From the NCBI GenBank assembly GCA_016200005.1, contig JACQFP010000006.1, forward strand, positions 1 to 61,081: a stretch of DNA of 61,081 nt, given 5' to 3'. Origin of the DNA: Verrucomicrobiota bacterium (lineage in GTDB: Bacteria; Verrucomicrobiota; Verrucomicrobiia; Limisphaerales; PALSA-1396). Positions 6,345 to 46,607 of the stretch are shown here, piece by piece (within the stretch, counting starts at the first letter, position 1; each line of letters starts with the position of its first letter). Made by a program: the position numbers and the translations under genes. Under the pieces are notes generated by a model. It saw only the letters and a program-made list of their open reading frames with translations. It ran no database searches and was not told the origin of the DNA.

Positions 6345-6419
6345 TGGTGCGCGCTGCAGGTTTCGAACCTGCGACCCCTACCGTGTGAAGGTAATGCTCT
6401 ACCACTGAGCTAAGCGCGC
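6345..6419 (-). tRNA. tRNA-Val, anticodon CAC
   Basis: The minus strand folds into a full cloverleaf. The 7-bp acceptor stem is GCGCGCT/AGCGCGC, perfectly paired. The D arm is GCTC...GAGC, the anticodon stem TTACC/GGTAG encloses TTCACAC with anticodon CAC, and the T arm is GCAGG-TTCGAAA-CCTGC. The discriminator A is followed by a genomically encoded CCA. The anticodon CAC reads the valine codon GUG. Confidence 0.96.
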
Positions 6420-18440: not shown

Positions 18441-18620
18441 CTGGATGGACGTTCGTCCATCCGTGTCGCAGTCAAACATCTGGGAACCCCGTGAGAATCG
18501 GGGACGGTTACGCCACTGTAACGGACTACAAACTCCCATCGCCACTGGCCGCGCAAAGCGGACCGGGAAGGCGGGAGCGAGGTTAAGCCCGAAGTCAGGA
18601 TATCGGTTTGGCTGTGCTCG
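18441..18620 (+). promoter_or_regulatory. cobalamin riboswitch aptamer
   Basis: The core consensus is clear: GGGAACCCCGTGAGAATCGG, then GGGACGGTTACGCCACTGTA, and further on CCCGAAGTCAGGATATCG. This matches the cobalamin (B12-box) riboswitch, including the P4-P6 junction and the B12 box. A perfect hairpin with stem GGATGGACG (18443-18462) precedes it. The next gene on the strand starts at 18976 and encodes a secreted LamG-like protein, not a B12 transporter or biosynthesis enzyme. Between aptamer and gene lie a palindromic repeat (18630-18720) and a hairpin CCTGTCG...CGACAGG (18747-18769) that could be part of the expression platform. Confidence 0.9.
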
Positions 18621-44174: not shown

Positions 44175-44273
44175 ATGGGCAAACAATATAACAAAGTTGA
44201 AAAGCGGAAACGTCGGGCGGCCTACCTGAAGCGGAAAAAAACCGCGGCCAAGATCAAACCGGTCAAAGCCTGA
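44175..44273 (+). CDS. 32-residue highly basic small protein
   Basis: ATG 44175 to TGA 44273 encodes MGKQYNKVEKRKRRAAYLKR followed by KKTAAKIKPVKA. Sixteen of the 32 residues are lysine or arginine. The codons are regular and the frame is closed by its own intrinsic terminator 18 nt later, which supports a real gene. I recall similar very short basic proteins annotated only as small basic protein in Verrucomicrobia. Ribosome or nucleic-acid binding is a reasonable guess. It is divergent from the lipoprotein gene, with 45 nt between them for both promoters. Confidence 0.7.
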   Translation: MGKQYNKVEKRKRRAAYLKRKKTAAKIKPVKA

Positions 44274-44291: not shown

Positions 44292-44319
44292 CAGACCACC
44301 TTAACCGGTGGTCTTTTTT
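44292..44319 (+). terminator. intrinsic terminator of the small basic protein gene
   Basis: AGACCACC-TTAACC-GGTGGTCT forms an 8-bp stem and runs straight into TTTTTG. It lies 18 nt after the stop codon. Confidence 0.9.
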
Positions 44320-44379
44320 GTTGTGCGATGACCGCGAAGATTTCATCGCGCAGATTTTCTCACTTTGGCGTTGTTAAAC

Positions 44380-44519
44380 TTGTTCACCATTCCCGATTTT
44401 TCAGCAAGAGCGGCTGTGAATAAGTTTTAGAGACGCGCGCCGGCCCTTGAATTTATTGGTGGGATTGAGTTGTGCACATTTTGTTCACCAAGTGATCTCG
44501 GTTAACAAGTTGTGCATAA
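44380..44519. promoter_or_regulatory. cluster of DnaA-box-like 9-mers
   Basis: Two sites match TTATNCACA exactly on the minus strand: 44415-44423 (TTATTCACA) and 44511-44519 (TTATGCACA). Three near-matches lie with them: TTGTTCACC at 44380-44388 and 44481-44489 and TTGTGCACA at 44470-44478. The stretch 44320-44540 is AT-richer than its surroundings and has no ORF. It could be a DnaA-regulated promoter for the RNA that follows, a DnaA titration site or part of a replication origin. Confidence 0.4.
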
Positions 44520-44549
44520 GAAATCGTTGTCGAAGTCGAGAAATTTGTT

Positions 44550-45430
44550 AGTCTAGCTTCAGTTCATTGAAAGAACTGAGAAGGTCGGTGACAGACGAAA
44601 GAATGAAGCTGGACGTCTCAGGGATAATCCCAGGTGACTGGGGAAAGGTTGAGTCAGGCTGGTTGGTTCAACCCCTCTTAAGGCGGATCGTGAGGTTCGT
44701 TGGCCGAGGCAGAATTCACCAGTTCCTTTGACGACGTTCGCGCGTCGTCAGTAACGCGAAGTAGGAACTGAGCGGCGAGGAACGATTAGAAACCGTTCCA
44801 AGTCGGGTCAAGTAGCTCAGGCTGGTTTCGGGCTTGAGTGAATCGCAGTTACCCAGAGGGTAAATGGTTGCTACTGTGCATCAGCACGGAGCGAGCGACT
44901 CTGGCGGTCTCCGAAAGGAAAATCCGCCAAACGAAAGACGCTGAAAGGCGGGACAAAGTGAGCGTTCGTGCCGGGAAGTCAACGGGGTCTGGCAAGGCCC
45001 GTCAAACTTCTGAAACGTCGGCGATGTTACAAACGACACCGCTGGTTTGTGAGCGAAAAGCAACCTGAGAGGTAAGAGGTCAGACCCGTGGCACTGGGCC
45101 AACGCACTGTTAAAAGCGGTGGCCGACCCAGCGCTAACTGGTGAAGACGCGGAGCTACAATCACAAACGTGTCTTTACCTGGTTCGTAAGCCGGCGTCCG
45201 CAAACGCCAGTTGAAGCGAGCTAAGAGGCCTCACTCGAAATCTTGTGACCGCAAGGCTCAGGACGGCCCTGCTATGAGGCCGAAGACTCCGCTTGCCGTG
45301 GAGAATGGCGTCGGGAAGCTGGCAGCCAATTTGGCGCCAAATGTCAGCGCGGGAAAGAGAGCGTGGCGAACTCCCATCCCCCATTTGGTCCCTGCTTGAC
45401 CGCAAGGTTGGGCAGGGGCTTTTTGTTTTT
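44550..45430 (+). ncRNA. candidate large structured RNA of unknown class
   Basis: About 880 nt without a plausible ORF, closed by a strong plus-strand intrinsic terminator. Many local hairpins can be read. TCAGTTC/GAACTGA is at 44559-44579. TGACGACG-TTCGCG-CGTCGTCA (44729-44750) is nested in AGTTCCT/AGGAACT (44721-44769). GGAACG/CGTTCC is at 44779-44799, TTACCC-AGA-GGGTAA at 44849-44863 and GTGC-ATCA-GCAC at 44876-44887. TGGCGG/CCGCCA with an inner TCC-GAAA-GGA is at 44902-44929. The start is estimated from the first hairpin, with TTGTCG and TAGTCT upstream as weak promoter elements. It does not fit tmRNA, SRP RNA or 6S RNA. Partial RNase P look-alikes do not hold up. It lies between a small basic protein gene and cysK. 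Confidence 0.6.
45390..45430 (+). terminator. strong intrinsic terminator of the large RNA
   Basis: CCCTGCTTGACC-GCAA-GGTTGGGCAGGG forms a 12-bp stem (with G-U pairs) capped by a GNRA tetraloop, followed by GGCTTTTTGTTTTT. Confidence 0.92.
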
Positions 45431-45433
45431 ATT

Positions 45434-45527
45434 CCTCTTAATCTTAATCGTAATCTCACTCTTAATCCTCGGAGTGATGGGGGGACTCCAGAAGATTAAG
45501 ACGAGGATTAAGAGTAAGACTTAAGAA
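45434..45527. repeat. palindromic repeat, CTCTTAATCTTAATC family
   Basis: CTCTTAATCTTAATCGTAAT and CACTCTTAATCCTCG on the left are inverted as CGAGGATTAAGAGTAAGACT and GAAGATTAAG on the right. It lies between the RNA terminator and cysK. Confidence 0.8.
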
Positions 45528-45623
45528 TTGGTGGAGAAAAGTACTTGCCCTCCACGCGCTTTTGGCCAAAATCCCGCCCACAAGATTCAAGCTAAACCCG
45601 AACGCGCAAATTTTAAAACTCTT

Positions 45624-46607
45624 ATGGGACGCATTTACAATAACATCATCGAAACCATCGGTCGCACGCCCCTCGTCAAATTAAACCGCGTCACCGATGG
45701 CGCACCCGCCACCATTTTGCTGAAGTGCGAGTTCTTTAATCCGTTGGGCAGTGTCAAGGACCGCATCGGCATGTCGATGATTGAAGACGCCGAGAAGCGC
45801 GGCGTGCTCAAGAAGGAAACGGTGATCATTGAGCCGACCAGTGGCAACACCGGCATCGCCCTGGCATTTGTGGCCGCGGCCAAGGGATACAAACTGATCC
45901 TGACGATGCCAGAGACGATGTCCTTGGAACGGCGCACGCTGCTGGCCATGTTGGGTGCGAAGCTGGTGTTGACTCCGGGAACGGAGGGTATGAAAGGCGC
46001 CATCGCCCGTGCGGAGAAACTGGCGAAGGAGACGCCGAACTCCTGGATTCCGCAACAGTTCGATAACCCGGCCAACCCCGAAATTCATCGTAAGACGACC
46101 GCTGAGGAAATCTGGGAGGATACCAACGGCAAGGTGGACATTCTCATCTCAGCAGTGGGGACGGGCGGCACGATCACCGGTTGCTACGAAGTCATCAAGC
46201 CCCGCAAACCGTCGTTTGAAGCCATCGCGGTAGAACCGAAGGATTCCCCGGTGATTTCTCAAACTCTGGCTGGGCAACCCCTCAAGCCCGGTCCGCATAA
46301 GATTCAAGGCACGGGCGCAGGGTTTGTTCCAAAAAACTTGCACCTGAAGGATTCCAAGGGCAATCCCCAGATCACCGAATGCATTCAGGTAACCAATGAC
46401 GACTCGTTTTCCATGGCTCGCCGTCTGGCCAAGGAAGAAGGAATTCTGGCGGGCATCTCGACCGGCGCCAACGTCGTCGCCGCCATCGAAGTGGCTAAGC
46501 GCCCTGAAAACAAAGGCAAGATGATTGTCACCATAGCTTGTTCCACTGGTGAACGTTACCTGAGCACTCCGCTGGCAGCCGAAGCCAGAGCGGAAGTGGG
46601 TGGCTGA
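45624..46607 (+). CDS. cysK: cysteine synthase (O-acetylserine sulfhydrylase)
   Basis: The 327-residue PLP enzyme makes cysteine from O-acetylserine and sulfide. It starts [22 protein letters not shown]. The cofactor lysine lies in [17 protein letters not shown], the substrate loop is [20 protein letters not shown], and the phosphate loop is [23 protein letters not shown] and [23 protein letters not shown] complete the fold. ATG 45624 gives the family-standard N-terminus. cysE is not adjacent. A palindromic repeat and the RNA terminator precede it, so it has its own promoter. Confidence 0.95.

Follow-up and report, generated by a model that had tools for sequence, protein, structure and literature searches.

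The structured element in the window, a 61,081-nucleotide stretch of a Verrucomicrobiota genome to whose numbering all positions below refer, belongs to the catalogued family MISL RNA (Rfam RF03079), an assignment that leaves practically no room for doubt. Just upstream of MISL, an array of paired DnaA-box-like sites is conserved across several families and extends to two genomes from outside the class. From these comparisons, the best overall reading is that of a stand-alone structured RNA whose transcription is probably coupled to replication by DnaA. The features of the locus are collected in Table 1.

Table 1. Positions of the MISL RNA, its helices and pseudoknots, and the predicted control sites around it. 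Pairing percentages refer to the 97 aligned loci; two-sided, pairs with changes on both sides.
Feature	Position	Strand	Basis or support
DnaA-box-like site, exact TTATTCACA	44415..44423	-	motif
DnaA-box-like site, one mismatch (TTGTGCACA)	44470..44478	+	motif
Double DnaA-box-like site	44500..44519	-	44511-44519 exact (TTATGCACA); 44500-44508 three mismatches; 2 bp apart
Possible promoter, TTGTCG, 16 nt, TAGTCT	44527..44554	+	weak, 7/12 consensus letters
Likely full MISL transcript, from 5′ hairpin through terminator	44560..45420	+	predicted ends, from 5′ hairpin, loop-core contact and terminator
Conserved 5′ hairpin, outside Rfam model	44560..44578	+	81.6% paired (5 pairs, most of them invariant), two-sided 1/5
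Helix P0, outside Rfam model	44578-44583 with 44614-44619	+	75.5% paired, two-sided 6/6
MISL RNA, full Rfam model RF03079 (1-751)	44622..45374	+	cmscan
Pseudoknot A	45047-45052 with 45161-45166	+	94.4% paired, two-sided 6/6
Pseudoknot B	44866-44871 with 45060-45065	+	96.7% paired, two-sided 6/6
Pseudoknot C	44737-44742 with 44755-44760	+	88.8% paired, two-sided 4/6
Pseudoknot D	44659-44663 with 44880-44884	+	99.4% paired, two-sided 4/5
Pseudoknot E, 5′ hairpin loop to core	44568-44571 with 44715-44718	+	97.9% paired, two-sided 1/4
Pseudoknot F	45270-45274 with 45306-45310	+	100% paired, two-sided 2/5
Helix extension	45018-45023 with 45040-45045	+	91.3% paired, two-sided 4/6
Terminator-like stem, 15 pairs, GCAA loop, then T tract	45387..45420	+	sequence

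Identity and fold of the MISL RNA

A cmscan search of Rfam matched RF03079 on the forward strand over the whole model, with 619.2 bits against a cut-off of 274.6 and an E-value of about 1e-187; no other Rfam family matched 44300-45600 at E up to 1. A sequence-only reading of the window had proposed an undescribed element here, which this significant, full-length match refutes, and a new RNA family is thereby ruled out. The same reading had set the element apart from OLE, GOLLD and ROOL, in agreement with RF03079 being the sole family matched (RNase P and tmRNA did not match either), and had described a large, independent structured RNA gene, which the Rfam match and the covariation over 97 loci support.

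The 97 MISL loci were aligned with MAFFT and are 51-94% identical to the window (median 73%); they are unevenly sampled, with an effective number of 67.4 at 85% identity, and the partial matches of three genomes (G013, G022 and G119) were left out. Over these loci, the 171 base pairs that the Rfam alignment assigns to the window are kept in 86.1% of cells, and 156 of the 171 have two-sided changes, so that homologues do carry the compensatory changes expected of a conserved fold. Sliding the pair partner by 1-3 columns lowered pairing to 36-42%. The folding energy of 44560-45426 is -351.5 kcal/mol, below that of 20 shuffles (mean -311.8, sd 8.5; z -4.67), and together with the base pairs this bears out the well-formed hairpins noticed from the letters. 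The claim that the element holds no credible open reading frame (ORF) also stands: ORFs of at least 40 aa inside or reaching into it do not exceed 94 aa, and each of the six reading frames has a median of 5-7 stops across the 97 homologues, although long stop-free runs in single homologues count against non-coding status (over the 97 loci, the longest run has a median length of 142 codons and reaches 249 at most).

When 292 candidate stems were scanned for covariation, the highest ranks went to helices of the model together with stems absent from its nested structure, among them the pseudoknots of Table 1. Pseudoknot E is the weakest of the accepted stems: its score of 39 is not far above that of the next stem (33) and depends on one variable pair. 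The conserved hairpin lies about 60 nt upstream of the start of the RF03079 model, with P0 between hairpin and model; because its loop contacts the core through pseudoknot E and because P0 occupies the intervening stretch, the functional RNA probably starts near 44560 and would be about 860 nt long. It thus shares the nested structure of RF03079, but seems to be longer at the 5′ end by those 60 nt and to contain pseudoknots that the nested structure of the model lacks. Of the extent first proposed, about 880 nt (44550-45430), the large size holds, whereas the model covers 44622-45374 and the likely RNA runs from about 44560 to 45420. The plus-strand terminator with a GNRA loop is present as described, except that it has 15 pairs and not 12 bp, and the isolation from the upstream neighbour is corroborated by a terminator-like site of the upstream gene at 44293-44314. 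Five MISL copies (L182, L183, L184, L189 and L191) need about 840-945 nt to cover the model, where about 755 is usual, and therefore hold insertions.

No functional study of MISL RNA was found among the matches listed in the literature searched, where the name mostly denotes things unrelated to RNA, such as a Salmonella autotransporter. The only paper on the RNA that was found is Ribonanza, in which, according to the available part of PMC10925082, a segment of MISL was mapped chemically. The 5′ domain and the pseudoknots described here define a construct for structural or biochemical work.

MISL might act as an RNA-only multimer or scaffold, a reading that concerns its mode of action and is compatible with control by DnaA. 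It falls in the size class of OLE, ROOL and GOLLD and has a similarly ornate, pseudoknotted fold, and all three form homo-oligomers (PMC12286853, available part). However, MISL shows no relationship to them in sequence and no match to their models, and we consider a multimer rather unlikely.

Paired DnaA-box-like sites upstream of MISL

The DNA upstream of MISL homologues contains recurrent TTATNCACA-like 9-mers. One of the 97 loci had too little upstream DNA and was dropped from the counts; in the other 96, positions -260 to -90 relative to the model start hold 239 boxes with no more than one mismatch (52 exact), and 79 loci have at least two. Dinucleotide shuffles of the same stretches, which ignore the relatedness of the loci, gave 11.6 boxes (sd 3.1, maximum 20), 0.32 of them exact, and the flank from -1200 to -300 holds 24 boxes in 81.9 kb. 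Sixty letter-shuffled patterns reached 52 at best (median 9), and the box pattern written backwards yielded 24, against 239 for the box itself. A motif-free count returned GTGAATAA as the commonest 8-mer, present in 70 of 96 loci versus 2 of 92 flanks.

Spacing between boxes on the same strand peaks at 11 (19 pairs) and 12 (17 pairs), which leaves 2 or 3 bp between the boxes; every other spacing between 9 and 30 is represented by 2 pairs at most. When a degenerate partner is allowed, double boxes 2-3 bp apart occur in 86 of 96 loci versus 1/93, 0/92 and 0/91 control stretches; that of the window combines one exact box with a three-mismatch partner. Box pairs 2 or 3 bp apart are bound preferentially by the DnaA of E. 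coli, as stated in the available part of PMC11317965. The enrichment recurred in 32 further loci, with 13.2 boxes per kb in a 180-bp stretch versus 0.16 per kb further up and at least one box in 30 of the 32. These were the usable remainder of 120 loci (L216 and above), from which 60 that shared a 60-mer with the first set, 23 without the hairpin anchor and 5 that were too short had been removed. Among 20 sites lacking MISL, 14 had no box and none had two boxes within 250 bp. Boxes are missing from -330 to -60 in 4 of the 96 loci (L180, L186, L093 and L194). In both genomes with two copies of MISL, one copy has the box array (L193, L092) and the other is boxless in this stretch (L093, L194).

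In 14 of 16 dnaA loci, such boxes, often exact TTATTCACA, are separated from the downstream DnaA_C domain by more than 1,050 nt, which places them around and upstream of the gene start. The other two loci are that of G244, whose record begins at the dnaA region and has a perfect box just across the record start, and that of G463, in which no box was found before dnaA. Perfect boxes precede dnaN and mraZ in G236; others lie near rpsL, clpB-like and phoH-like genes, which have no evident link to replication, and at the 3′ end of a Mur ligase gene. Five complete genomes contain 21, 11, 7, 8 and 20 perfect TTATNCACA sites versus 29, 18, 23, 27 and 37 of the reversed pattern. In each of these (G163, G463, G244, G419 and G236) the perfect site is the rarer one, as if stray DnaA boxes were avoided.

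The boxes at dnaA and elsewhere support DnaA as the ligand, short of proof, and we consider it very likely that DnaA binds upstream of MISL. The identification draws on motif and spacing only, and the commonest form of the box, TTATTCACC (69 instances), departs from the textbook box in its last letter, as might be expected if another regulator with a similar recognition site controlled MISL. Both the double-box spacing of 2-3 bp and the occurrence of the same boxes at 14 of 16 dnaA loci argue against such a regulator, which we regard as improbable.

With DnaA as the ligand, the array could still be mainly a titration or reactivation site, similar to datA or DARS, at which the DNA would matter and the MISL RNA would have a linked but separate function. 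Many boxes within about 150 bp would suit such a site, and the DARS loci of E. coli also bear double boxes (PMC11317965, in the part available). Against this, the array keeps its position directly before the RNA in lineages whose neighbouring genes differ, the box cluster is missing where MISL is missing (20 of 20 sites), and the RNA itself is strongly conserved; we regard a role chiefly in titration or reactivation as improbable.

Clustered boxes could further suggest that the locus is a replication origin and MISL an origin transcript, which is scarcely tenable given the GC skew. Sampled in 20 stretches of 20 kb per genome, the skew of G163 becomes positive near 4.0-4.3 Mb/0 and negative again near 2.05 Mb, whereas MISL is at 2.45 Mb; that of G463 changes sign near 2.55 Mb and near 5.1 Mb, and MISL is at 4.09 Mb. 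In G097, whose whole-genome profile is noisy, mostly negative values were seen to either side of MISL over 180 kb. None of the three has a negative-to-positive change at the locus. The local profiles of G125 and G000 showed no clear switch, and the distance from dnaA to MISL ranges from 0.15 to about 2.2 Mb in eight single-contig genomes.

Distribution and gene neighbourhood

In the order of the window, 68 of 146 sampled genomes have a MISL match (65 over the cut-off), as do 45 of the 87 with a completeness of 90% or more and a contamination of 5% or less. Across a phylum sample, 31 of 387 genomes matched, 28 of them over the cut-off, from several families of the class and from two genomes outside it; none of 14 control genomes did. 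A pattern scan of one sequence collection returned at least 119 MISL-like stretches, and the 80 titles listed are Verrucomicrobiota lineages. Matching genomes have one MISL each, except for two copies in G300 and G474; G022 has one copy in two pieces. Three records titled Akkermansia muciniphila (L233, L238 and L295) carry MISL, and their likely counterparts (G065, G008 and G103) belong to the order of the window, so that the titles may be wrong. While ROOL and GOLLD occur in phages and prophages (PMC12286853, available text), blastn against plasmid and phage collections gave no MISL match, and on this basis we reject a phage or plasmid element. One 2.3-kb IMG/VR contig contains the MISL core pattern.

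MISL in the window is preceded by a 32-aa basic ORF, a SecDF_P1_head-domain protein and an M23 peptidase, and is followed by the gene of a pyridoxal-phosphate (PLP) enzyme and then by Rho. Homologues occur near MISL in 40 (SecDF domain), 35 (M23), 21 (PLP enzyme) and 13 (Rho) of the 97 loci, whose flanks often comprise only 1.5 kb. In the loci of family f66, the flanking genes are instead those of a helicase and an EF-Tu/EF-G-type GTPase, and no neighbour gene is common to the MISL loci of all lineages. Of the 78 genomes of the order without a match, 20 were examined. The SecDF-domain gene was at the site in all 20, and in three (L340, L351 and L355) the PLP-enzyme gene follows the small ORF at a distance of 46-191 bp with no MISL between them. 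Since many relatives do without it, and since the same neighbours adjoin each other in 3 of the 20 MISL-lacking relatives, MISL is, on this comparison, a free-standing, discrete and dispensable gene. The window also holds a match to the cobalamin riboswitch aptamer (18482-18604, +) and a tRNA gene (6348-6419, -).

The very basic 32-aa ORF (44175-44273, +; MGKQYNK..KRKRR..YLKRKK) has no Pfam match. It adjoins MISL in 40 of 97 loci, two weak matches (E 0.38 and 0.99) having been set aside. Single matches to it occur in 129 of 146 genomes of the order, versus 68 of 146 for MISL, and it was also found in 13 of 20 other genomes. In seven complete MISL-bearing genomes of other families (G163, G244, G236, G267, G416, G419 and G463) it lies away from MISL on the chromosome. 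Because of this wider occurrence and separate position, we reject it as a dedicated protein partner of MISL and treat it as a neighbour only; that its product is a small ribosome-associated protein is a guess.

The PLP-enzyme gene lies downstream on the same strand in the window (at 45624), and a homologue does likewise in 21 of 97 loci, but the 15-pair terminator that separates it from MISL and the different downstream gene in family f66 speak against a cis-regulatory leader of the PLP-enzyme gene, an explanation to which we give almost no credence.

Possible promoter and proposed role of MISL

The possible promoter of Table 1 was not reported by a promoter scan with a threshold of 9/12. In the window, the exact box at 44511-44519 is 8 bp from the possible -35 (44527), and the distance from the start of the nearest upstream box to the 5′ hairpin is 41-60 nt in 47 of the 82 anchored loci; seven of the 82 had no scorable promoter. 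A box just upstream of the -35 is in a place more typical of activation. Behind the boxes of family f66, the promoter of L079 is an unconvincing -10/-35 pair (4/12 letters) and that of L082 scores 7; promoters such as that of L079 might need an activator.

Because DnaA-box-like pairs precede MISL in most of the relatives examined, a tie between MISL and chromosome replication is suggested. DnaA would bind the double boxes and, perhaps as the activator of a weak promoter, would couple MISL transcription to the replication cycle; we consider control of this transcription by DnaA likely. The product would be a stand-alone, tightly folded RNA of the length given above, ended by the terminator, which may then work in trans, either as a structured RNA or as part of an RNP, in processes tied to replication or to the cell cycle. 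We propose a function in replication or the cell cycle only tentatively. With similar reserve, we suggest that DnaA directly times MISL synthesis across Verrucomicrobiota and that the RNA, as a ribozyme, RNP or multimer, could feed back on initiation, nucleotide supply or division.

The proposed arrangement resembles that of nrdA in E. coli, a DnaA-controlled promoter with tandem double boxes 2-3 bp apart upstream of the gene (PMC11317965, in the part available), with the difference that the product of the MISL gene is a large structured RNA and that its binding of DnaA is predicted from motifs. If the DnaA reading is true, MISL also has in common with CcnA, a cell-cycle noncoding RNA of Caulobacter, a tie to the replication cycle; however, CcnA has only 182 nt, is located at the origin and presumably has CtrA as its activator, according to the accessible text of PMC8959179, whereas MISL has about 860 nt and lies off the origin.

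Although the family itself is already catalogued, no earlier mention of the box array or of a link between DnaA and MISL was found among the matches listed in the literature searched, which does not establish absence. The conserved double-DnaA-box promoter provides a testable lead on the role of MISL, as it predicts both the controlling protein and the timing. If this prediction is true, the DnaA regulon would include, in MISL, a noncoding RNA that is large and pseudoknotted.
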